Part shown: positions 9,954 through 59,626 of the stretch, piece by piece
Layout: each line of letters starts with the position of its first letter
Position numbering within the stretch: position 1 is the stretch's first letter
Origin: Hyphomicrobiaceae bacterium
GTDB lineage: Bacteria > Pseudomonadota > Alphaproteobacteria > Rhizobiales > Hyphomicrobiaceae
Assembly (NCBI GenBank): GCA_022844275.1
Contig: JALHMB010000013.1
Coordinates: 1 to 64,000, forward strand
Length of the DNA: 64,000 nucleotides
Direction: 5' to 3'
Notes under the pieces: generated by a model
What the model saw: only the letters and a program-made list of their open reading frames with translations
Database searches by the model: none
What the model was told of the DNA's origin: nothing
Position numbers and translations under genes: made by a program

Positions 9954-10625
9954 TCACTTCTTCGTCTGCGGTTGGTCGTGGAGAATCACGTTCAGCAACG
10001 AGCTGTGAACCTCGATGCCGCCGTTGTAGTCGATGAAGCCAAGCCTCCGGAACTTGTTCATGAAAAAGCTCACCCGAGCGCGCGTCGTGCCGATCATTGC
10101 TGCAAGTGTTTCCTGACTGATCCTGGCGATCACCGGCTCGGGCTTGCCATCCGTGCCGAAATTCGCCAACAGCAGGAGCAGGCGGGCAAGACGCTTTTCA
10201 CTCGAATTGAACAATTGATCGACCAGGTCCTCTTCCACGCGGATGGTGCGTCCCAACAGGTGCGCGATGAACATCTCCGAGAAGGCGGTCTCGTCACGGA
10301 CCAGGCGGACGACGGCCGCTTTCTCGATGCGCACGATTACTGACTCCGCAATGGTCGCAACCGTCGCTATACGCCGCGGTTGCCCGGCCAAGCAGCCCTC
10401 GCCGAAGAAATCGCCCGAACCAAGAATTGCGATGACGGCCTCTTTACCTTGCGAGGAGAAGGCGGTGACCTTGACCTTGCCCTTTTGAATGTAGAACACC
10501 GCATCCGCAGGTTCGCCCTGTGAAAACACAGTTTGATCCTTGCCGTACTGCACAATGCTGCGCCGCTCGCCGACTCTGGCGATGAAGGACTTTGCATCGA
10601 AGGACCCGCTTGCCTTGTTTACCAC
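9954..10625 (-). CDS. Crp/Fnr-family transcriptional regulator (rhizobial type)
   Basis: 223 residues. A cNMP-binding-like barrel (about 20-130; VFSQGEPADAVFYIQKGKVKV, GSGDFFGEGCLAGQ) precedes a winged HTH (about 155-215; ISQETLAAMIGTTRARVSFF). The recognition segment TTRARVSFFMNKF lacks the E-x-x-S-R of FNR/FixK, so it should read a different operator. SSEKRLARLLLLLANFG and GFIDYNGGIEVHSSLLN are typical of a family common in Rhizobiales. The effector is unknown. A 950 bp stretch without obvious genes lies upstream. Confidence 0.85.
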   Translation of the reverse strand: MVNKASGSFDAKSFIARVGERRSIVQYGKDQTVFSQGEPADAVFYIQKGKVKVTAFSSQGKEAVIAILGSGDFFGEGCLAGQPRRIATVATIAESVIVRIEKAAVVRLVRDETAFSEMFIAHLLGRTIRVEEDLVDQLFNSSEKRLARLLLLLANFGTDGKPEPVIARISQETLAAMIGTTRARVSFFMNKFRRLGFIDYNGGIEVHSSLLNVILHDQPQTKK

Positions 10626-38616: not shown

Positions 38617-39735
38617 TCAAAGAACGGTCTCTACCCGGATCTTGACCGAACCCGCCGGCTTGGTGGAATCGAGCTCCTGGAAGGAGAAGAACAGCGTGCC
38701 GGAGCGCTCGACGATCTGCTGCACGGGCGTGAAGGTCGGCTGATCCATGCCGCATTCATAGCTCGTCAGACGGATTGCGCAGGTGATCCAGGGAATGCGC
38801 GCGGCAACCTTGGCTCCCCAGAGGATCTCGTTGGTGTTGGCGCTGTAGGAGGAGGGCCAGACGTCGGCGATGTCGAAGGGTGATTTGATGTGGCCAGCCG
38901 CAACGTCGGCGCCGAACATCCACTGCATGAGATCGGCATCGAGCGGGAAGTATTGCGCCCACAGGATCGGATAGCCGTGGGCTTGCAGATCGGCTTCGAC
39001 CTCGTGACCGATGCCGGCATCCATATGGTAGGGGCGAGCGAGCACCATGATGCACGCCCGTCCCTCGCTGGCGCACAATTCCAGTATGGCACGGCTCCGC
39101 GAACGGAGTTCGGCGTTGAAGTCGGCGAGCGCGCGGTAGCCAGCCTCGACAGCGTGTTCCGTTTCGGAGAGTGACAGGCCGGGTAGAACGTGCTTCAGCC
39201 CGTCGTGAAGCTGGCGCGGCACGAGCCGGGGCTCGGCCAGCGAGACTAGCGGTGCGACATAGGCGATGCCGTTCTCGGCGAATACATCGCGCTCCTTGAC
39301 AAAGCCGGCCCTGATGTTCTCCGGCGCGGCCATCACCCGCGGGCAGGCGAGCGACTCCATGACATGGCCGCCGAGGAAAGAATCGAGGGAATAGATCATC
39401 GGCGAGAACAGGATGTCGATCTTGCGCTTCTGCCCGAAGATCAGTTCGCCGTAATGCCCTGACACGCACTTGACCGGATAGCAGCAATCCACGGTGCCGC
39501 GACCGCGGCCGTATTCACGCCCTTGTTCCTCGGACGTGTCAGAGGAAAAGACGACGCGCTCGTTTGGCACGCCGAGCGCGCCGAAGAAGCCGAGCCAGAA
39601 TTGGTGCGTCGTCCAGATGTTGAGGACCTTTGGAAGCCCGATCCTGAGCTTGGCGCGCGCCTCAATGTCAGCATCCCGCCCAGGCGCGACGGAAGGCGTG
39701 CGTTCGAACCACTTCGCCAACATTTGGATAGACAC
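38617..39735 (-). CDS. DUF2229-type subunit of 2-hydroxyacyl-CoA dehydratase activase system
   Basis: 372 residues. LRIGLPKVLNIWTTHQFWLGFF and FSSDTSEEQGREYGRGRGTVDCCYPVKC are the DUF2229 hallmarks, normally the C-terminal part of large (about 1400 residue) BadF/BcrA-type activases. The conserved cysteines (DCCYPVKC) suggest an iron-sulfur site. The ATPase half is the previous gene, which overlaps by 68 bases, so the usual single protein is split here. No dehydratase or reductase core subunits are encoded nearby. Confidence 0.82.
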   Translation of the reverse strand: MSIQMLAKWFERTPSVAPGRDADIEARAKLRIGLPKVLNIWTTHQFWLGFFGALGVPNERVVFSSDTSEEQGREYGRGRGTVDCCYPVKCVSGHYGELIFGQKRKIDILFSPMIYSLDSFLGGHVMESLACPRVMAAPENIRAGFVKERDVFAENGIAYVAPLVSLAEPRLVPRQLHDGLKHVLPGLSLSETEHAVEAGYRALADFNAELRSRSRAILELCASEGRACIMVLARPYHMDAGIGHEVEADLQAHGYPILWAQYFPLDADLMQWMFGADVAAGHIKSPFDIADVWPSSYSANTNEILWGAKVAARIPWITCAIRLTSYECGMDQPTFTPVQQIVERSGTLFFSFQELDSTKPAGSVKIRVETVL

Positions 39736-41830
39736 GACGCCGCTCCTCCATATCGGCCTTCACGACCTTCATCTCGTTGACATCCTCGACGAGGCCCTTG
39801 GGGCAGGAATTGCCGCTGATGACGCGCTCCCAGCCCTTCGCGACGGGAACCTTGCTCCACGGCCGGCCCTTGGCGCCCGGCGGCCGCACGTCGATGAAAG
39901 CGCGCTTGCAGTTGACCGGGCACCAACGGCAGATGGTGCTGCTGCTCGTCGTGGTCCGGTACTCGAGCGCCTCGATCGTCTCGAAGCCGCGGAAGCGGCT
40001 CAGGCTGACGCCGTCCCACGCCTCCAGGGCGCACAGGGCGGCACCGATGGCGCCCGCCTCGCCGGAATGGGGATGAATGACGACCTCGGCGTCAGGCACC
40101 TTGGAGGTGATGAAATCAACCTGCGCCTTGACCACGGCAAGGTTGCGGTGGGTACCGCCCTGCAGCACGAAACGGCGCCCAGCCGCGCGCAGGTTCTGCA
40201 ACTGCCCGGCATAAATCCACACGTTGAGCGGCAGGACAGCGGCAAGCGAGGCCATGATCTCCTCGGCTGTCCAGCCTTTGCGCTGCTGATTGACGATATC
40301 CGACTGCAGGAAGACGCCGCAGCCCATGGCCAGTTTCGGCATCGATGTCGCTGCGAAGGCTTTGTCCGCATAGTCCTCCAGGGCAATGCCGTAGCGCTCA
40401 GCCACCCCTTGCAGGAACGCCCCATTGCCCGATGAGCATTGAGAATTGAGGCGGAAGTCGGCGACCGTGCCTTGGCGCAGGATCATGATCTTCACGTCCG
40501 TGCCGCCAACGTCGCAGATCACGTCGGCATCCGGAAACACCTCGATCGCCGAACGAGCATGGGCGACGGTCTCGACCACGCCGATGTCGGCGCCGAGGAT
40601 GTCCTTCAGGAGATCCTTGCCGTAACCGGTCAGCGCCAGAGCTGCCACCTTGCCGACGCCGGCGGAGCGGAGATCGGCGAACAGCGCCTTGGCGTCCTCG
40701 ATCGGGTTGCCTTTCGACTGGACGTAGCAAGAGTAGATGAGCTCGCGGTCCGGCGCGAGCACGACTGCCTTGGCGGTGGTCGATCCGAAGTCGCAGCCGA
40801 CGAATAGCGCCGCGTCGGAGCGAACCGCACCCTTGGCGCCGGCAGCCTTGCCACCGGCATAGCGCTGGCGGAAACCGTCGAGATCGGCGGTGCCGCGCAC
40901 CAATCCTTTGGCGCCCTGCTCAGCCTTTTCCTCGTGCTGGCCCTGATCAATCCACCAGGCGAGGCGATCGGTTCCGGCATAAACGCCGACATTCTCGGCC
41001 TCGCCCTGGCCGATTTCGACGCAGCCGAGCGCCGCGTAGTAGAGCGCCTCTTCTGGCACGGTCACGAGTTCCTGCGGCCCAAGCCCTTCCGGCGGTGCCA
41101 CGCCACGCTCGCGCCAGAGCTTAGCCAGATGGTGGCGCCAGGCCTGCTGCAGCCCGGTGAAGAACAGGTTAGGGCCACCGAGCAACAGCACCTGCGGCGC
41201 CGGAGTGTTGCCCTTGGTGAGGGTGGCAAGGTTCTGATAGACGACCGCCTCGAACAGGCTGGCGATGATCTCTTCGACCGGCACGCCGCCCTTCAAGAGC
41301 GTGTTGGCGTCAGCCTCCGCGAAGATGCCGCACTTCGAGCTGACTTTGTGCAGGCTCATGCCGTCGTAGGGCATCCGGGCCAGCGCCTCCGGCGGGATTT
41401 GCAGCTTGCGCGCCGTCTTCTCGATGAAGGTGCCGGTTCCGCCGCTGCACGCCGACTGCATGTAGACCTGCTTGGACTTGCCCTTGCCGGAGGCGGTGAA
41501 AAAGATCGTCTTCATGTCCTCGCCGCCGATCTCGGAAACAAACCGCACGTCGGGGTGAAGCTTCTCCACCGACGCCGCGACGGCCACCACCTCCTGGACC
41601 AGCTTGCCGCCGACGAGCGAGGCGATCACGCCGGCACCCGAGCCCGTGAAGAAGACGCGGTCGCGCCCAGGCACAAGCCCGCACGCTTCGTGCATGCGGC
41701 CGAGGAACTCGTGCACCTTCTTCGCCTGACGCGTGCCGTGACGCTGATAGTCGCGCCACACGACCCGGTCGTTGGCGAGCGCGACGGCTTTGACCGTGGT
41801 CGAGCCGACATCGAGGCCGATGATGGTCAT
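39668..41830 (-). CDS. BadF/BadG/BcrA/BcrD ATPase family protein, two ATPase domains (CoA dehydratase activase)
   Basis: 720 residues. The first ASKHA ATPase domain (about 1-300) has IGLDVGSTTVKAVAL, SACSGGTGTFIEK and SSKCGIFAEADA. The second (about 325-590) has VGCDFGSTTAKAVVL, NSQCSSGNGAFLQG and AMGCGVFLQSD. Each cysteine pair would ligate a [4Fe-4S] cluster at the dimer interface. A C-terminal Cys-rich stretch (TICRWCPVNCKRAF, GNSCPKGLVEDV) follows. Such proteins use ATP to send low-potential electrons to 2-hydroxyacyl-CoA dehydratases or benzoyl-CoA reductases. ATG at 41830 has GGAGGG upstream. Confidence 0.87.
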   Translation of the reverse strand: MTIIGLDVGSTTVKAVALANDRVVWRDYQRHGTRQAKKVHEFLGRMHEACGLVPGRDRVFFTGSGAGVIASLVGGKLVQEVVAVAASVEKLHPDVRFVSEIGGEDMKTIFFTASGKGKSKQVYMQSACSGGTGTFIEKTARKLQIPPEALARMPYDGMSLHKVSSKCGIFAEADANTLLKGGVPVEEIIASLFEAVVYQNLATLTKGNTPAPQVLLLGGPNLFFTGLQQAWRHHLAKLWRERGVAPPEGLGPQELVTVPEEALYYAALGCVEIGQGEAENVGVYAGTDRLAWWIDQGQHEEKAEQGAKGLVRGTADLDGFRQRYAGGKAAGAKGAVRSDAALFVGCDFGSTTAKAVVLAPDRELIYSCYVQSKGNPIEDAKALFADLRSAGVGKVAALALTGYGKDLLKDILGADIGVVETVAHARSAIEVFPDADVICDVGGTDVKIMILRQGTVADFRLNSQCSSGNGAFLQGVAERYGIALEDYADKAFAATSMPKLAMGCGVFLQSDIVNQQRKGWTAEEIMASLAAVLPLNVWIYAGQLQNLRAAGRRFVLQGGTHRNLAVVKAQVDFITSKVPDAEVVIHPHSGEAGAIGAALCALEAWDGVSLSRFRGFETIEALEYRTTTSSSTICRWCPVNCKRAFIDVRPPGAKGRPWSKVPVAKGWERVISGNSCPKGLVEDVNEMKVVKADMEERRRVYPNVGEVVRTHAFRRAWAGC

Positions 41831-42015
41831 GCCACCCTCCGTGCGGCCGGCGGCGCGGCGGCCACCTGACCCGTCGACGCGGCGAGGTGGAGCAGCGTGT
41901 TGGCAGCGGTGCCGACCATCCCGCCATGCGGAATCCGATACCCCCATGTCCTCCTTGGTCAACGGCTTCGGAGAATAGGCGCGGTAAGGCTCCAAGCGTA
42001 GATGGTTCATGTGGT
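41831..42015 (-). other. Possible decayed 3' end of an upstream gene
   Basis: One leftward frame reads GYRIPHGGMVGTAANTLLHL and ends with TGA overlapping the activase ATG (ATGA), as a coupled upstream gene would. A neighbouring frame carries HLRLEPYRAYSPKPLTKED. Together they look like one frameshifted, truncated gene. I cannot name the family. Confidence 0.35.
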
Positions 42016-42354
42016 TCACAGCTCCGCCCCGGCAGCGCAGATCGTAAGGCGACCCGCGGGACGCTCAACCACAAGCAGGTCGCGCGCGCTGCCAACGGGC
42101 CGCTGGCTGGCGTGGCTTTCAACAACAACCCAGTCACCCTGTGCACCGTTGGGCTGCCGGACCTTCCGGACGCAAAGTGAGTTGTTCCATTCAGCTTCGT
42201 GGTCGGCAATCAGGGCCCTGGACGCCACAGAACAGTGCTTCGAAACGCGTTGCGCCCTCCAAGGCCAGCAGCCACCAGCTACGTCTTCCGAGATGCCGGA
42301 CCGCGAGCCATCCACGACGGATGCTGCCATCTGCTCGCTAGCTGTGTCCGGCAT
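42016..42354 (-). CDS. Hypothetical protein, doubtful
   Basis: A 112-codon frame, MPDTASEQMAASVVDGSRSG to AAGAEL, ends with TGA inside GTGAACC. It contains a more protein-like stretch (ALIADHEAEWNNSLCV, GDWVVVESHASQRP) but has a weak ribosome site and matches no family I know. It may be an unrecognised small gene or chance. Confidence 0.3.
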   Translation of the reverse strand: MPDTASEQMAASVVDGSRSGISEDVAGGCWPWRAQRVSKHCSVASRALIADHEAEWNNSLCVRKVRQPNGAQGDWVVVESHASQRPVGSARDLLVVERPAGRLTICAAGAEL

Positions 42355-48773: not shown

Positions 48774-49466
48774 ATGATGATTCCGCCCCGCCTTGCTAAA
48801 GGATACGAACAGTTTCGGCGCGAGCAGTTCCCCAAGGAGGTCGAGCGCTATAAAGTGCTCGCCTTAGAGCAGAAACCCCATACGATGGTGATCGCGTGCG
48901 CCGATAGCCGGGTCGATCCGACGACGATCTTCCAGGCATCGGCCGGCGAGCTTTTCACAGTCCGCAATGTCGCGGCGCTCGTGCCGCCGTTTGAGGAACT
49001 TGGCCACTATCACGGCACGAGCGCTGCCGTTGAGTTCGCTGTCACGGAGCTTGGCGTAGAGTCGATCGTCGTCTTAGGTCACGCACAGTGCGGCGGCGTG
49101 GCGGCTTCACTCAAAGCTGCGGGCAACGCCGCGCCAGCTGGGCTCTTCATCGGCCCCTGGGTGGCGCTCATCGAAGACGTTCGCGACGAACTGCTTGAGC
49201 GGCGACCGCAATTGTCGCCAGAGAAGTGTCAGGAGGCGCTCGAGGAGCTAGCGATCAAAAAGTCGATTCTGAACCTCAACACATTCCCGTTCGTAGCGGA
49301 AGCTGTCTCGCGCGGCGACCTCCATCTTCATGGCGCCTGGTTCTCCATAGGCCAGGGTGAGCTAAGATGGCTTCATCACGCCCGTGGCGCATTTGAGGTC
49401 GTTTCGACGATTTCTCGCAGCCCAAATGGCAACTTCCATCGAGGCGCATCCCTCAAGCTACACTAA
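48774..49466 (+). CDS. Beta-class carbonic anhydrase
   Basis: 230 residues. The zinc ligands and catalytic dyad are complete: Cys42-x-Asp44-x-Arg46 in ACADSRVDP, then His103 and Cys106 in GHAQCGG. FTVRNVAALVPP and HGTSAAVEFAVTELGV are family blocks. It interconverts CO2 and bicarbonate in the cytoplasm, supplying bicarbonate or aiding pH control. It follows the 99-residue protein. No FixK/FNR box was seen upstream. Confidence 0.92.
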   Translation: MMIPPRLAKGYEQFRREQFPKEVERYKVLALEQKPHTMVIACADSRVDPTTIFQASAGELFTVRNVAALVPPFEELGHYHGTSAAVEFAVTELGVESIVVLGHAQCGGVAASLKAAGNAAPAGLFIGPWVALIEDVRDELLERRPQLSPEKCQEALEELAIKKSILNLNTFPFVAEAVSRGDLHLHGAWFSIGQGELRWLHHARGAFEVVSTISRSPNGNFHRGASLKLH

Positions 49467-50337: not shown

Positions 50338-51670
50338 CTACAGGATCGCGGATGCGCCCTCACGGCACTTGCTGAGAGAGGTTCTCCGGCTTGGCATCGA
50401 CCCTTCGAAGAAGGGCCGATAGTCAGCACCGCTTTTGATGATCGCATGCGCAGTGCGCGCCATCTTGGCGGTAATGGCTGTGACCGCCTTGCGCTTGAGA
50501 TCGGTATTGTCGCGATCTCGCGCGATGTAGCGCTCGTATTTGGCTCGAAAGCTGTTGTCGGGTTGGCGGATAGCAACCTGGGCGGCGATCCAGAAGGCGC
50601 GCCGCAGACGAGCATTGCCGAACTTCGATAGCTTCGCGTGGCCGCGGAACTGACCGGACTGATAGGTTGCGAGATCGAGGCCGCAGAATTTCAGGAACTT
50701 TCGATGATGGCCAAAGCGGCGGAGATCGCCGGCCTCAGCGAACACGGTCAGCACAGTGATCGGTCCGATGCCCGGGATCTGCCGCAGACGCTGGTAATCC
50801 GGATTGGATGCAAGCGCCGCGTGCGCTTGCGCCTCTATCAGGTCGCGCTGGCGGACCCGGCTTCGCCCCTCGGCGATGACGATACGGAACATGCTGATCG
50901 CAGCGCTGTCTAGCGCGACCGGCAAGCCGATCGAGGAGGCTGCGGTCTCGTAAATATCGCCCAAAAGGCGAGCTTCTGAGACTTTCCTGCCGACCACGCC
51001 CCAGGACGACTCGACGAAGGCGTCCTTCGAGAGCGCGATAATGCTGGCCGGTGTCGGAAACGCCTCTAGAAAGGCGAGGAACCAGTCGCTGCGAGAGTTG
51101 CCGGCGAACCGTGCGGCCTCCGGAAAATATAATGGCAGGTAGTGCGTCAGGCTGCGATGCCAGCTGGGAAATTTTCGATGCCCACAATCAGGGAGTATTC
51201 AACGCCCGGGGACATCGCTTTCGAAATCACCTCGTGCGTCTTCGACAGCTCCTGGATATCGTTGATACCGGTGAGGAGGCGATCGGCGTAGGTCTGCGTG
51301 GCGCCGATCTAGAGCATGTGCAGGATGACCTGCGCGTCCTTCGGATCGTTCTTATCACAGCCGTTGTGCAGCGCCTAACGCGTCCTTGCCAGCGCGACTG
51401 AGGACACGAGCCGTAGCGAGACGCCGGCCTCGAGCAGGCGGAAGGCGAGCCGGCGGTGGTAGTTGCCCGTCGCCTCGAAGCCCCGCGATGACCGGCTGGC
51501 CAAGTGCCCGCAGTATCGATGAAGCGATCGTGCTCGATGCGCGTGTTCGGCATCACCAACCGGCGCCGTCGAGCAGCGCCCGGCATCTCGATCAGGACGT
51601 CGTTGCGAACTTTCGACACGTCGATGGCTACCAGGATGGCTGGAGCTGGCGTAGTCTTAAGAATGGTCAT
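50338..51670 (-). pseudogene. IS110-family transposase, full length but degraded
   Basis: The start (MTILKTTPAPAILVAIDVSK) and C-terminal domain (RLRQIPGIGPITVLTVFAEA, FLKFCGLDLATYQSGQFRGH, KLSKFGNARLRRAFWIAAQV) are recognisable on the same strand. The region between has several stops and frame changes. The C-terminal 219 codons (50338-50997) are the longest intact piece. It is a third IS110-type lineage in this window. Confidence 0.8.
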
Positions 51671-53419: not shown

Positions 53420-54331
53420 TCACTCGGTCGGCCGCACCGCAAGCACGTCACATGGAAGTGTGCCGATGAGGCGCTCGGCGACACTGCCGATCACTGCCCG
53501 GCGCAGTCCGGTTCGGCCGTGTGTGCCGACAACTACCAGATCTGGGTTGGAGTGTTCGATGTACCGCTTCAGCCCAATATCCGGTGCTCCGATCTCGACC
53601 GCCGTTGTCAGATTCAGACGCGAAGTCCGCGCATTCTCGACGAACTCGGCGATGGCTTTCTCCGCCAAAGCCCGCATCTCCCGCTTGTGACGCTCCGCGA
53701 GATGGCCTGTCACCTTGTCGCTCGCAAGCAGGCCGTGAAGCGCATCATCGTAGACATGGACGACCGTTGCCTTCGCATCGGGAAACAGTTCCAGAGCGCA
53801 CTCGAGTGCCTCTTTCGAGGGCGGCGAAAAGTCTGCCGCAATCGCCAAACTGAGATAGGGCGCGAAAGCGCGGTTGCGCACCGACAAGACCGGTTGCAGC
53901 GCGCGACGCAACACATGGTCCACCGTGGACCCTAGCAGTCGTTGAGCCAGAGATGTCCGCTCGCCAGGCCCCATCACGAGCAGGTCGATGAACAGGCGGT
54001 CGCACTTTCCGAGAATGCGCTCGGCCGGACTGCCGAGTGAGACGAGCGTATCGATGTCGAGCCCTGCCGCTTCCGGATGGCCCTTAATCTGCTGCTCGAG
54101 CAAGACCTCCGACTTGCGAACGCGTTCAGTGAAATCGCGGGCAGGCAGCGTGTTATCGACGACGTGGACGACGAGCAGAGAGGCCTTCCAGCGCCGCGCC
54201 AGCTCGATCGCACGATCCACGGCTCGATCGCAGGTCGGCGTCAGGTCAGTGGCACAAAGGATCTTGCGCGGAGGCTTCCAAATACCGGGCACGGCGAGCG
54301 CTTTCTTCTGATTGCGCCAGCATCCAAGCAC
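53420..54331 (-). CDS. Tandem UspA protein
   Basis: 303 residues, two UspA domains. Domain 1 begins RKILCATDLTPTCDRAVDRA; domain 2 begins APYLSLAIAADFSPPSKEAL and has the ATP-binding loop GTHGRTGLRRAVIGSVAERL. The ATG at 54331 starts only 19 bp from the FixK/FNR box at 54351-54364. The real start may be the GTG at 54292 (VPGIWKPPRKIL), which leaves room for a leader. It is divergent from the HTH-carbonic anhydrase gene and shares its control region. Confidence 0.88.
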   Translation of the reverse strand: MLGCWRNQKKALAVPGIWKPPRKILCATDLTPTCDRAVDRAIELARRWKASLLVVHVVDNTLPARDFTERVRKSEVLLEQQIKGHPEAAGLDIDTLVSLGSPAERILGKCDRLFIDLLVMGPGERTSLAQRLLGSTVDHVLRRALQPVLSVRNRAFAPYLSLAIAADFSPPSKEALECALELFPDAKATVVHVYDDALHGLLASDKVTGHLAERHKREMRALAEKAIAEFVENARTSRLNLTTAVEIGAPDIGLKRYIEHSNPDLVVVGTHGRTGLRRAVIGSVAERLIGTLPCDVLAVRPTE

Positions 54332-54350
54332 GCATGCCTGTAGGTCGTCG

Positions 54351-54364
54351 TTGATCTACGTCAA
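54351..54364 (+). promoter_or_regulatory. FixK/FNR box TTGATCTACGTCAA with class II-spaced -10
   Basis: TTGA-N6-TCAA centred at 54357.5. TATACA at 54387-54392 is centred 32 bp downstream, which places the box at about -41.5 for a start near 54399, 23 bp before the HTH-carbonic anhydrase ATG. The box also abuts the divergent UspA gene, which it might activate or repress. Confidence 0.75.
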
Positions 54365-54421
54365 AGACGCTTCACAAACGAAAACCTATACAAACGACCA
54401 TTGAGAGACGTAGGTGGCGGC

Positions 54422-55357
54422 ATGCTGAAAAAACCACTCTATACCGTGCGCGAGGTGGCCGAGCTCCTGAAAGTCAAGGAGGCGACCGTGCGTGGCTGGA
54501 TGCGGCGCGGAAGTCTTCGCGGCGTGCATATCAGCCGGGAATGGCGGATTGCGGCCAAGGACCTCGAAGCGTTCGTCGAGGCGGGCCACGGCTCAGGTCG
54601 CGGGTCCGAGGGCAAGTTCGGGCAACATGACGTGACGACGCACGGGCTCACGCCGAAGGAAGGTCCGGATTCGCCGCTTGCGTCAGACGTCATCAGGCTG
54701 GACGACATCGACGAGCTCACGTCGGGGTATCACGAGTTCCTCGCGGAGCACTATGCCCGCGAGGCTGAGCTTTATCGCCAGCTCGCGCACCGCGGCCAGT
54801 CGCCAAAGACCATGGTGGTCTCCTGCTGCGACAGTCGCGTCGATCCGTCTCGCGTGTTCAACGCGGGTCCAGGGGCCCTGTTCGTCGTACGGAACGTCGC
54901 CAACCTCGTGCCACCCTACGAGCCCGTCGGGTTCCACGGCACCAGTGCCGCCATCGAGTTTGCAGTCACCGGCCTTCACGTGGAGAACATCATCGTCATG
55001 GGCCACGCGCGGTGCGGCGGCATCCGCGCATTTCTGGAGCGGTTCAGCACCGATCGGTCGAAGGCCTTGCACACTCCTGCAACTGGCGACTTCATCGGCA
55101 AGTGGATGTCGTTGCTTCGCCCCGCCTGGGGTGACGTTGTGAAGGAGAACGCCAAACTTGACACCGAGCGGCGACAGACGGCGCTGGAGCACGCCGGCAT
55201 TCGTCTGTCGATCGAGAACCTGCGGACTTTTCCGTTCGTGAGAGAGAAGCTGGCGCGGCGGGAGCTGTGCCTTTCAGGCGCCTATTTCGACATCGCGACC
55301 GGGCAACTCCAGACACTCGACCCTCAGTCCGGAAGGTTCGAAGTCGTGACGCAGTAG
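54422..55357 (+). CDS. HTH (excisionase/MerR-like)-beta-carbonic anhydrase fusion
   Basis: 311 residues. About residues 5-53 form an HTH_17 winged helix: LYTVREVAELLKVKEATVRG, then WMRRGSLRGVHISREWRI with the W-R-I wing. A flexible linker (55-90) leads to a beta-carbonic anhydrase (about 95-311) with all ligands: Cys135-x-Asp137-x-Arg139 in SCCDSRVDPS, and His195/Cys198 in GHARCGG. The same frame can start at TTG 54401, but ATG 54422 has AGGTGG before it. It may be a DNA-bound enzyme or a CO2/bicarbonate-responsive regulator; no such function is established here. A FixK/FNR promoter drives it. Confidence 0.9.
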   Translation: MLKKPLYTVREVAELLKVKEATVRGWMRRGSLRGVHISREWRIAAKDLEAFVEAGHGSGRGSEGKFGQHDVTTHGLTPKEGPDSPLASDVIRLDDIDELTSGYHEFLAEHYAREAELYRQLAHRGQSPKTMVVSCCDSRVDPSRVFNAGPGALFVVRNVANLVPPYEPVGFHGTSAAIEFAVTGLHVENIIVMGHARCGGIRAFLERFSTDRSKALHTPATGDFIGKWMSLLRPAWGDVVKENAKLDTERRQTALEHAGIRLSIENLRTFPFVREKLARRELCLSGAYFDIATGQLQTLDPQSGRFEVVTQ

Positions 55358-55417: not shown

Positions 55418-56233
55418 ATGGACATCCTCGTTCACGTTAAGGCCCATGAGATGCGGTCGGAGCCCGTTGGGGTTGCCACCAGGCTCGCCAAGGACCTGGG
55501 TGCACGGCTGACCGGTCTTCACACCTTGCGCGACATGGCGGCGCTGAGGAACATGTTCGGTGACGGTGCCGCAATCGTCACGCAGCGCCAAGCTGAGTGG
55601 GACTCCAAGACAGAGGCCGCAAAATCGCGCTTTCTGGCCGACCTGCGAACGCAACAGCTCGACGGCACTTGGTTGCAGGGTGAAGGTCAAGCCAGCGAGA
55701 TGCTGTCGTTCATGGGCCGCTTGTACGATTTGGTCGTCGTCGAACAGACCGGTGCCGGCGATCCCATCGACTGGGATCCGGTCGAGGAGACCGCCCTCGG
55801 CAGTGGCGCTCCGACGCTCGTCGTGCCGAGCGCCGGTAATTTCCCTCGGGTTGGCGAGCGCGTCGTGATTGCCTGGAACCATAGCCGCGAGGCTTCGCTC
55901 GCGGTCCGCGGCGCAATGCCGATACTCGTCAGGGCGAAGGAGGTTGTCGTGCTCTCGGGCCAACGCCGCGAGTCTTTCTCAAGTATCACGCACTGGCCTC
56001 CACATGATCTCGCGGAGAGTCTGCGCTGCAAAGGCGTCGCGGCAAGAGCCGCGCGCCTTGTCATTGAGGGCGTGACGGATGGAGCCGGGTTACTCAAAGC
56101 GGCTCACGCGCACAGCGCCGATCTCCTGGTGATGGGTGCCTACGGTCGCTCGTGGATGCGGGAATGGTTGCTCGGCGGCGCCACACGTCATGTCCTTCGA
56201 CACATGGACCTTCCGGTTCTGGTTGCACATTGA
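55418..56233 (+). CDS. Tandem UspA-like protein, alphaproteobacterial type
   Basis: 271 residues. It begins MDILVHVKAHEMRSEPVGVA. The second half has GERVVIAWNHSREASLAVRG and MGAYGRSWMREWLLGGATRH. The final loop G-x-S/W-x-x-x-x-x-LGG-x-T-x-x-V is the variant common in this subgroup. It lies 60 bp after the HTH-carbonic anhydrase gene and is probably cotranscribed. Confidence 0.88.
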   Translation: MDILVHVKAHEMRSEPVGVATRLAKDLGARLTGLHTLRDMAALRNMFGDGAAIVTQRQAEWDSKTEAAKSRFLADLRTQQLDGTWLQGEGQASEMLSFMGRLYDLVVVEQTGAGDPIDWDPVEETALGSGAPTLVVPSAGNFPRVGERVVIAWNHSREASLAVRGAMPILVRAKEVVVLSGQRRESFSSITHWPPHDLAESLRCKGVAARAARLVIEGVTDGAGLLKAAHAHSADLLVMGAYGRSWMREWLLGGATRHVLRHMDLPVLVAH

Positions 56234-56428: not shown

Positions 56429-57757
56429 ATGAATCCCTCTTGGACGTCGGGTTTTGGGTTTTTCCTGGCTACGGTCGGCTCCGCGATCGGTCTCGGAAAT
56501 ATCTGGAGGTTCGCTTACCTAGCCGGCGAGAATGGCGGCGGCGCCTTCATTGTCGTCTACGTCGTCGCTGTGGCATTCATTGCCTTGCCGGTGCTGTTCG
56601 CCGAGTTTCTGGTCGGGCGGTCTGGAGGTGCGGATCCGACGAGCGCCTATCCAAATCTATCGAAACGCTCAGGTGTTGCCGTCATCGGTTGGATTGCCGT
56701 CATCGGTTGCTTCGTGACGCTCGCTTACTATGCCGTCATCGCGGGCTGGGTCGCGCGCTACCTCTCCGTCGCGCTGATGGGCCGCCTGGCTCCTGGTTCC
56801 GGCGAAAGCTACACGGACGCCTTCAACGCCTTTACCGGTCATGCCGTCGCGCCGGTGCTCTGGCAGGCCGGGGTGATGGCCGCAACGGCCGCTATCGTGG
56901 CGGCAGGTGTGACCGCGGGGATCGAGCGGCTCTGCCGTCTGCTGATGCCAGCGCTGGCCGTCATGGTCGTCGGACTTGCCGCCTATTCCCTGAGCCTTCC
57001 CGGTTCGTCGCGGGCGCTCTCGTTCATGTTCATTCCCGACTGGTCTGCGCTTTCGCGTCCGCAGCTCTACCTGGCAGCGATCGGTCAAGCCTTCTTCTCC
57101 GTGGGCGTCGGCTATGGCGCCATGCTGACGTACGGAGCCTATGCCGGGCGGCGCCAATCTCTGCCGCGCACGGCCGTGTTGGCCGCCATTGCGGATACGG
57201 CCTTTGCACTGGTGACCGGCATTGCCGTGTTCGGCGCTGTATTCGCGTTCGGCCTCAACCCGGCGAGCGGTCCGCCGCTGGCCTTCATAACCTTGCCGGA
57301 GGTTTTTGGGCGCATGCCGGGTGGCACGCTCTTCGCAGTCGCATTCTTTGCGCTTCTGCTGGCCGCCGCGCTGACAAGCGCCGTTGCGCTGCTGGAGGTG
57401 CCGGTGGCCGCGCTGATGCAGCGGCGCGGTATCGCTCGGGCCCGCGCGGCATGGCTTCTTGCTGGCCTGATCTTCCTCGCAGGCGTTCCAACTGCGCTCG
57501 GCCATGGACCGTGGAAGGCTTTCACCGTGCGCGGCATGGGACTGTTGGAGCTGTATGACACGGTCGTTGGCGAGATCCTGTTGCCGCTCTCCGTTCTTCT
57601 CGTATCGGTCTTTGTCGGTTGGCTCTGGGCGGGCGGGCAGGCGGCGCGCGAATCGGGGCTTGCTGACGGCCCGGCACAATGGTGGGTGCGACTGGTTCGT
57701 TTCGTGGTGCCGCTGGTGATCGTGGTTCTTTTTGCGGCGGCACTCTTGAAACTCTGA
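56429..57757 (+). CDS. NSS (SNF) family sodium-dependent transporter
   Basis: 442 residues, 11-12 helices. GFFLATVGSAIGLGNIWRFAY is the TM1 sodium/substrate site. GQAFFSVGVGYGAMLTYGAYA (TM6-TM7 region) and the TM8 block AALTSAVALLEVPVA follow. It imports amino acids or osmolytes with Na+. It is probably fed by the Na+ gradient that Mrp-type systems build (inference). It sits between tandem UspA genes on the same strand. Confidence 0.9.
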   Translation: MNPSWTSGFGFFLATVGSAIGLGNIWRFAYLAGENGGGAFIVVYVVAVAFIALPVLFAEFLVGRSGGADPTSAYPNLSKRSGVAVIGWIAVIGCFVTLAYYAVIAGWVARYLSVALMGRLAPGSGESYTDAFNAFTGHAVAPVLWQAGVMAATAAIVAAGVTAGIERLCRLLMPALAVMVVGLAAYSLSLPGSSRALSFMFIPDWSALSRPQLYLAAIGQAFFSVGVGYGAMLTYGAYAGRRQSLPRTAVLAAIADTAFALVTGIAVFGAVFAFGLNPASGPPLAFITLPEVFGRMPGGTLFAVAFFALLLAAALTSAVALLEVPVAALMQRRGIARARAAWLLAGLIFLAGVPTALGHGPWKAFTVRGMGLLELYDTVVGEILLPLSVLLVSVFVGWLWAGGQAARESGLADGPAQWWVRLVRFVVPLVIVVLFAAALLKL

Positions 57758-57815
57758 TGCCGTGGAAGAACGTCAATCGACGAAATCGGATGGATCGCTC
57801 CAAGGAGGCAAGAAA

Positions 57816-58691
57816 ATGCATGGCTTTGACTCTCAGCTCAGCCTTGTTCTCGCGACCGATCTGTCGGAGCGCTCGGATCGCGCCTTTGATCGCGCCCTGC
57901 GTCTGGCCCGCGAGCAACGGGCGCTCCTGACAATTGTTTACGTGATCGACGACGCGCTGCCCGCTGAGATAGGTCAGCGACTGCATCGGGAGGCGATGGA
58001 TTTCATCAACCATCAGATCGATGCCAGCAAGATCAAGGGCCACGCGGATATCCAAGTCCGGCTTGTTCGCGGCCGGGTTCATCAGACCATCATCGAGCAA
58101 GCCAAGGACACGCACGCCCATCTCATCATCCTTGGTATCCACCGCGCAGATGCGCTGATCGACACGTTCCGAGGGACGACAGTCGAGCGGGTCGTCCGTC
58201 TGGGCGACCGATCCATCCTGGTCGTGAAGAAGAAGCCAATGCGCGCCTACCGCAACATTGTGGTTGGCACCGATCTCTCGCAACCGTCGCGATATGCCCT
58301 CGAACTTGCATTGCGTTTGTTCCCGCACGCCGACGTCACGGTGCTGCACATCACGTCAGCGCCGATTGCCCGGTCGATGCGGCGACACAAGGCTCTGGCC
58401 GATCTCGGGGCTCAACACCAAGCGCAGCTCCTGAGCATGATCGAGGACGTCTCCGCAGAGATGAGCAGGGAGCTCGAGATCAAAGAGTTCAAGCTCAAGG
58501 CGAGCATGGAGGAGGGTGAAACGGTCTCAGTCATTCTCCGCCGTGTCGACGCTCAACGTCCCGACCTCCTGGTCGTTGGCACGCATGGGCGGTCGGGCGT
58601 GAAGCGGTCTATGCTCGGAAGTGTCGCCGAACGCCTGCTGTCTGTCGCGCCTTGCGATGTCCTTGCTGTGCGTGCACGCCTCGAAGAATGA
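57816..58691 (+). CDS. Tandem UspA protein
   Basis: 291 residues. Domain 1 (about 1-145) begins QLSLVLATDLSERSDRAFDRA, and includes IILGIHRADALIDTFRGTTV. Domain 2 starts RAYRNIVVGTDLSQPSRYAL and ends with GTHGRSGVKRSMLGSVAERL, the nucleotide-binding loop, then PCDVLAVRARLEE. It is the intact counterpart of the amber-interrupted gene at 20.4-21.3 kb. AAGGAGG before ATG 57816 fixes the start. Confidence 0.92.
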   Translation: MHGFDSQLSLVLATDLSERSDRAFDRALRLAREQRALLTIVYVIDDALPAEIGQRLHREAMDFINHQIDASKIKGHADIQVRLVRGRVHQTIIEQAKDTHAHLIILGIHRADALIDTFRGTTVERVVRLGDRSILVVKKKPMRAYRNIVVGTDLSQPSRYALELALRLFPHADVTVLHITSAPIARSMRRHKALADLGAQHQAQLLSMIEDVSAEMSRELEIKEFKLKASMEEGETVSVILRRVDAQRPDLLVVGTHGRSGVKRSMLGSVAERLLSVAPCDVLAVRARLEE

Positions 58692-58789
58692 GCTGGGTCG
58701 AAGTATTCCGCCGGTCTTCGCACGCCAGACGCACGAGTCTGTCCGATCAGCTGTGCTTCAGTCAACAACCGAACCAAGGACTTCAGTCC

Positions 58790-59626
58790 ATGTACAAAAC
58801 CATTCTCCTGCACATCAACGATGACAAACGTGTCGGACGCCTGCTAGATGTCGGGGCCCAGGTCGCTCAACGTTTCAACGCCCATCTGAGCGGGCTATTC
58901 GTGCTCCCTTTTGTTCCCGCTCCGCCGATTCAATGGCCGATGGCGCGATCGGTGGTGGGCGGATTACTTGCGGCCTATCGGGAGGAGGCGGAACGAGCAC
59001 ACCAGTCCTTCGAGAGAGCAGTTCAAGGCCTGCAGATCGCGCCCGGATGGCGTCTCTACAAAGCGCCGACCCCGTCGTATTGTAACGCTGTCCTCGATCA
59101 CGGTCGTGCCGCCGATCTCATCATCGCGTCGCAGCGCGTGAGCGACTGGGAGTATGCCGACATGTTCGACATCCCAGAGGATCTCGTGCTGCAAGGAGGG
59201 CGGCCCGTCCTGATCGTGCCGAACTCGGGTGACCTCGAGCCGGTCGGCTCCCGCATCCTCGTTGCCTGGAACGGTAAGCGTGAAGGCGCACGGGCGATCT
59301 TCGACGCCCTTCCCCTTTTGAGCAAGGCGCAGGACGTGCGCGTGCTTTGGATCGATCCCCAAAATGAGGCGATCGGCCCGAGTGACATCGCGACCGCCGA
59401 GATTTGCGCCGCTCTGGCCCGTCATGGCGTGCGATGCGAGGGCGCGCATTCCAAGACCGATCGCGTCGAGGTCGGCGAGGAACTCTTGCGCCAAGCCGGC
59501 AAGCACGGCTCCGATCTTCTGGTCATGGGTTGCTATGGCCGCTCGCGGTTCCGCGAGTTCATCCTTGGAGGCGCGACACGCCACGTGCTCCACAACATGA
59601 CCATTCCCGTTCTTATGTCCCACTAA
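58790..59626 (+). CDS. Tandem UspA-like protein, alphaproteobacterial type
   Basis: 278 residues. It begins MYKTILLHINDDKRVGRLLD. Its middle has DLIIASQRVSDWEYADMFDI and GSRILVAWNGKREGARAIFD. It ends with MGCYGRSRFREFILGGATRH. The variant loop matches that of the 55.4 kb protein, so these two are a separate subgroup. It lies 98 bp after the preceding UspA gene. AAGGA precedes the ATG. Confidence 0.9.
   Translation: MYKTILLHINDDKRVGRLLDVGAQVAQRFNAHLSGLFVLPFVPAPPIQWPMARSVVGGLLAAYREEAERAHQSFERAVQGLQIAPGWRLYKAPTPSYCNAVLDHGRAADLIIASQRVSDWEYADMFDIPEDLVLQGGRPVLIVPNSGDLEPVGSRILVAWNGKREGARAIFDALPLLSKAQDVRVLWIDPQNEAIGPSDIATAEICAALARHGVRCEGAHSKTDRVEVGEELLRQAGKHGSDLLVMGCYGRSRFREFILGGATRHVLHNMTIPVLMSH

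Follow-up and report, generated by a model that had tools for sequence, protein, structure and literature searches.

What does a DNA-binding domain do on a carbonic anhydrase (CA), and where could such a protein have come from? The question is raised by a gene at 54422..55357, on the plus strand of the window, the whole 64,000-nucleotide stretch of Hyphomicrobiaceae DNA analyzed in this study. In this single uninterrupted ORF of 311 aa an HTH domain, a linker and a beta-CA follow one another. The HTH, placed at residues 5-53 by the initial annotation, is borne out as an HTH_17/excisionase-type domain at residues 6-54 (54437..54583; Pfam E 2e-13, 50.8 bits against a cutoff of 27), and the excisionase-type profile TIGR01764 of NCBIfam also scores above its cutoff (37.2 against 28.8 bits). 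MerR_1 reached 19.6 bits, under its Pfam cutoff of 21.6, and by this profile the domain does not count as a classical MerR type. Residues 55-94 (54584..54703) form a linker of about 40 residues of Gly/Ser/charged composition that has no counterpart in 21 other aligned CAs. The beta-CA domain at residues 95-311 (54704..55354) is delimited by profile, solved-structure match and alignment, and Pro_CA matches residues 130-296 with E 1.5e-43 and 149.2 bits against a curated cutoff of 25.7 (Pfam).

Translation starting past the HTH and misassembly had been named in advance as findings that could undo the observation. Neither seems likely. The ATG at 54422 has AGGTGG directly 5′ of it, the GC bias at third codon positions is continuous across the linker, and the sole in-frame start between the two domains, a GTG at residue 71, shows no clear ribosome site by eye. 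Translation from the ATG at 54422 is plausible on these sequence features. The stretch across the junction has a single match in its own genome and no 14-mer in common with the rest of the window, which makes misassembly unlikely. The HTH-CA fusion is confirmed as a real feature.

The earlier claim that the CA is complete in zinc and catalytic residues also stands. The zinc ligands (C135, H195, C198) and the D137/R139 pair are all present in the fused domain and identical in 85 of 85 aligned CAs. The best solved match is the pea beta-CA (PDB 1ekj, E 3.4e-42), which has the zinc ligands and the Asp/Arg pair in common with the fused CA but, unlike the fusion, lacks an HTH. At one of nine checked positions the two enzymes differ: Phe180 of the fused CA stands where pea has what we take to be Tyr205 in pea numbering, and Phe also occurs there in 76 of the 85 aligned rows. 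The second, ordinary beta-CA reported 6 kb away is real (48774..49466, plus strand, profile match) and 47% identical to the fused domain. Besides the fusion, the genome holds five CA-family matches, two of them weak.

The HTH half belongs to a family of small stand-alone proteins. With the HTH alone as query, relatives were found in 17 other genomes among 397 of the order; 25 others among 385 of the class and one other among 398 of the phylum (G761) also had one. The stand-alone genes encode 51-123 residues in the 66 gene places read, too short for a CA, and the longer frames around four matches (G285, G861, G1187 and G1210) hold genes of 69-123 aa; unlike the fusion, none carries an enzyme domain. 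Two sets of loci were compared. The first comprises 23 loci (19 from the order search, three from family searches and one from a phylum search), including one class-level locus (L178) and the near-duplicates L161/L162 and L168/L174; the second comprises 31 HTH genes from the class. L193 and L233 are one and the same place. A weak HTH match of G031 (L137) was kept out of both. No relative compared exceeds 64% identity to the fusion HTH. Across 21 stand-alone relatives, a count that leaves out L176 and the L161/L162 duplicate, 22 columns reach a conservation of at least 80%; the fusion HTH nevertheless keeps 18 of them and departs at the other four (I27M, A34G, G38S and T57G), the G38 position being probably the wing. 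A loss of DNA-binding residues among homologues, raised at the outset as a possible objection, thus does not undo the reading. An HTH tree had too few columns to place the fused domain. At L176:5964-6062, a relative breaks down after about residue 40, leaving a 51-residue frame.

Comparison with known proteins helps to judge what such a small domain might do. A protein at L231:6961-7863 (minus strand) resembles the fusion in having an N-terminal HTH_17 followed by a C-terminal ligand-binding-type domain, but its partner domain (PBP_like) is periplasmic-binding-protein-like and not an enzyme. Among solved structures, the fusion HTH weakly matches PDB 6ama and 6amk (E 0.18-0.2, not significant), which we take to be BldC, one of the small MerR-like regulators. 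BldC is a small HTH protein, as is the HTH half of the fusion, but it comes from Streptomyces and has no enzyme domain. As excerpts of the source describe it, this 68-residue MerR-like protein controls development and forms cooperative multimers on direct repeats (PMC5859096). By analogy, this suggests that an HTH protein of BldC-like size may be able to regulate transcription alone.

The fusion itself was found once. In 1,998 genome searches including repeats, run with the full-length protein or the HTH alone on genomes up to G1233, HTH and CA in one frame occurred only in the window's genome among the matches listed; this is the outcome of the database search for HTH_17 plus Pro_CA that had been proposed as a check. 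One order search used a strict cutoff of 1e-58, and a further search of the 397 genomes sampled from the order took just the HTH as query. No HTH match came from the four other genomes of the genus. Among the 60 plasmid matches listed of 340 records, none took in both parts, and the only one covering 80% of the query (plasmid H42) starts at residue 58, past the HTH. Eight phage records matched, none covering 80% of the fusion, and viral contigs yielded no relative. The best 80 of 553 relatives from named genomes, among which records near the window's genome are possibly missing, included none aligned to the HTH. Seen in just one of the genomes searched, the joined form offers no sign of conservation or of long-term selection. 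The initial annotation knew of no described regulator of this design; likewise, no title or abstract opening among the papers listed described a regulator or other protein of HTH-CA architecture, and the portion seen of a paper on cyanobacterial CO2 regulation (PMC13249358) contains no such fusion.

Several genes around the fusion encode universal-stress proteins. A divergent tandem UspA-domain gene lies 5′ of it (53420..54331, minus strand), a layout common to many stand-alone HTH relatives. On the plus strand, a UspA-domain gene begins 60 bp past the fusion (55418..56233) and is possibly in the same operon. There follow, by Pfam, a sodium:neurotransmitter symporter family (SNF) gene at 56429..57757, a tandem UspA-domain gene at 57762..58691 and a UspA-domain gene at 58784..59626, the start of the last being picked inside a longer ORF (58652-59626). 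A single query gave ten UspA-type matches in the genome at E up to 1e-20; seven lie on contig G000:C13 (20462-83578), and two of the seven are outside the window.

The association recurs with the stand-alone genes, as the initial annotation's link to UspA would have it. Using reference proteins verified by Pfam, we found Usp, KefB, cation ATPase, NhaA, Mrp or CA genes within 3 kb of the HTH in 20 of the 23 first-set loci (Usp 14, KefB-type antiporter 11, cation P-type ATPase 11) and in 21 of 31 class loci (NhaA 5, Mrp 5, cation ATPase 6, Usp 6, KefB 3, CA 1); the remaining 10 class HTH genes had none of the tested neighbors. Divergent Usp genes, laid out as in the window, occur at 11/23 and 5/31 loci, respectively; in nine of the 11 the alignment begins 133-253 bp from the HTH, and two are partial and further off. 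At 80 CA-centered control loci, none had Usp, KefB, cation ATPase, NhaA or Mrp, and at a looser cutoff one had a Usp gene within 5 kb. Since these control loci are mostly from other genera, an internal control was added: excluding L228-L241, tested neighbor genes have a density of 0.24 per kb up to 3 kb from the HTH and of 0.03 further out, a difference of about eight times. In a second control of 50 short CA-centered loci from the sampled genomes, NhaA was present in seven and the other tested neighbors in none, so NhaA beside a CA is not special to HTH loci. That genes for cation ATPases and for Na+/H+ or K+/H+ antiporters accompany this HTH family goes beyond the initial annotation; judged by titles or the start of abstracts, none of the papers listed describes an HTH family with NhaA, Mrp, Kef, cation ATPase and Usp genes as neighbors. 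The small HTH_17 protein probably regulates genes of ion/pH homeostasis and universal stress.

Control by FixK/FNR, proposed earlier for the fusion, gains support from the same loci. An FNR/FixK-type box (TTGATCTACGTCAA, 54351..54364) starts 71 bp before the ATG, and a candidate -10-like TATACA (54387..54392, plus strand) would by its spacing centre the box near -41.5, the class II layout. Box and TATACA together would fit a class II FNR promoter under the spacing rule for that class. TTGA-N6-TCAA also stands 5′ of the HTH at 10 of 23 first-set loci (positions -67 to -84; L161 offers only 47 bp of upstream sequence) and at four of 31 class loci (-43 to -116), the window's own being at -71, with about 0.012 expected per 250 bp by chance. 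In Rhodobacter capsulatus and R. sphaeroides, uspA is reported as a gene that FnrL activates directly, and in Dinoroseobacter the same is reported for usp genes (PMC4634722, PMC5398030). The sequence that the HTH itself might bind is a weak lead. By eye, ACAAACGA is seen twice as a direct repeat (54374-54381 and 54390-54397; span 54374..54397), the copies lying 16 bp apart; the pair is a possible operator. In an operator search run afterwards on the HTH upstream regions, the highest-ranking 7-mers proved to be AT-rich sequences or FNR half-sites. On the gene's strand, [AT]CAAAC occurs 0.33 times per upstream region against 0.046 in flanks, and on the other strand 0.08 against 0.05, the flanks being mostly coding. 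The window contains 11 TTGA-N6-TCAA boxes against about 1.2 expected, and a CRP/FNR-type gene at 9954-10625 (cNMP_binding and HTH_Crp_2). With these, several Usp genes and Mrp-type antiporter subunits, the window as a whole (1-64000) looks like a low-oxygen regulon island.

Loci at which the two halves are neighbors but unfused came from 98 genomes around G1130. In six of these an HTH gene lies near a CA: HTH, divergent NhaA and CA in four (L228, L229, L230 and L231) and HTH with a divergent CA alone in two (L232 and L233); a weak HTH match (34%) near the L238 CA was not counted. The CAs closest to the fused domain, up to 62% identical, come from this sample, and those of L228-L233 reach that figure; unlike the fusion, these loci have a separate CA of about 212 aa and an HTH encoded on the other strand. 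None of the six has a strict FNR box 5′ of its HTH. An ion-channel gene (PF00520) is next in L229 and L231, and the loci look like a pH/Na+ homeostasis locus of a type for which we know of no description. NhaA also stands beside an ordinary beta-CA in L024, L028, L030, L032, L034 and L122 from the window's family and in L031 from its order. As CA-NhaA pairs appear both in the HTH loci and in the seven of 50 control loci, CA and Na+/H+ antiport recur together, with the HTH family beside both.

In a tree of 85 CAs, which left out L005, L006, L121 and the duplicate L003, the fused CA joins seven rows at bootstrap 88 and SH-aLRT 81; HTH-linked CAs make up four of the seven. This sequence-based grouping has moderate support; a wider group of 13 rows including L231 is supported at 93/89. 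Five of the six HTH-linked CAs fall inside the fused CA's group, and the sixth (L230) is placed elsewhere with weak support. For the other three of the seven (L007, L234 and L235), the fetched stretch contains neither an HTH nor NhaA.

Other origins for the CA half were considered. Derivation from the CA 6 kb away is unsupported, given 47% identity and the grouping of that CA with L002, L119 and L031 in the tree, and the CA tree lends no support either to an origin in the CA that the family inherits vertically (L004 group). An earlier tree without class-level CAs paired the fused CA with L007 on long branches and is superseded by the 85-CA tree.

Taken together, we consider that the fusion has about an even chance of being a low-oxygen-induced, bifunctional DNA-binding CA, joined from two genes that are apart in other alphaproteobacteria and sometimes share one locus. 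Its partners would be a small HTH_17 protein and a beta-CA of the kind that accompanies an NhaA antiporter. This likely origin, and the unfused HTH/CA loci behind it, go beyond what the initial annotation proposed. In outline, an FNR/FixK-type activator would induce the gene at low oxygen, as the recurring box suggests. The HTH would then bind the short divergent promoter region common to the fusion and the UspA gene (54332-54421), to which the recurring divergent layout and the conserved columns point. The CA domain, with its residues intact, would be an active enzyme that brings HTHs together via the CA dimer and, going by the CA-NhaA linkage, would supply HCO3-/H+ exchange for pH balance alongside antiporters. 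More speculatively, fusion would keep the regulator together with the enzyme and in equal amount, and occupancy of the CA by CO2/HCO3- may influence DNA binding. The fusion may in this way couple CO2 chemistry directly to gene regulation when oxygen is low. Several observations weigh against this reading: the singleton status, the four departed HTH columns, the HTH/CA loci without a strict FNR box, the unplaced HTH in the tree, the grouped CAs without HTH or NhaA (L007, L234 and L235), the position of L230, and the 10 of 31 class HTH genes without tested neighbors.

Some of the same observations feed a second reading, in which joining in frame left the HTH without regulatory work and the protein acts only as a low-oxygen-induced CA. 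We think this possible but lean against it. The restriction of the joined form to one genome among those searched and the departures at conserved positions 27, 34, 38 and 57 would be expected of such a passenger domain. On the other hand, 18 of 22 conserved columns are kept in an HTH no more than 64% identical to the compared relatives, the divergent Usp gene and the FNR box are retained in the layout of the relatives, and with other CAs in the genome, CA supply alone is no explanation.

A bolder idea, which we regard as unlikely, is that the CA is itself a transcription factor, with a zinc site that reads CO2/bicarbonate or pH and gates an HTH controlling universal-stress and ion-homeostasis genes, the protein having arisen when a regulator was joined to an enzyme found in the sort of locus that the regulator's family serves. 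The initial annotation had suggested a sensor of CO2/bicarbonate or pH, or else an enzyme that would be tethered to DNA. Known bacterial regulators with a direct response to CO2 or bicarbonate are, to our knowledge, few. Rather doubtful, too, is the fusion as a one-component, CO2/bicarbonate- or pH-gated regulator (a trigger enzyme), in which substrate or zinc-site occupancy, or the oligomer state of the CA, would switch HTH binding: a precedent for HTH_17 with a ligand-binding domain exists in the HTH_17-PBP_like protein of L231 and the HTH family adjoins pH/ion genes, but the linker of about 40 residues offers no obvious rigid coupling. An artefact, either a misassembly or an internal start yielding a separate CA, is very improbable, for although the fusion is in one genome only and GTG71 could in principle start a CA-only product, the unique junction, the unbroken coding bias and the lack of a clear ribosome site at GTG71 all speak against it.

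A complete CA, a predicted DNA-binding domain and an FNR/FixK-type promoter come together in this one gene, which makes the protein easy to put to the test. Beyond the fusion, the comparison brings to light a small HTH family whose genes are linked to those for NhaA, Mrp, Kef, cation ATPase and Usp.

Elsewhere in the window, two further features were seen on the minus strand. An ORF at 50338-50997 resembles, by eye, a fragment of an IS110-type transposase. Adjacent DUF2229 and BadF/BcrA-type ATPase genes occupy 38617-42019, in an arrangement that is presumably that of activators of dehydratases.
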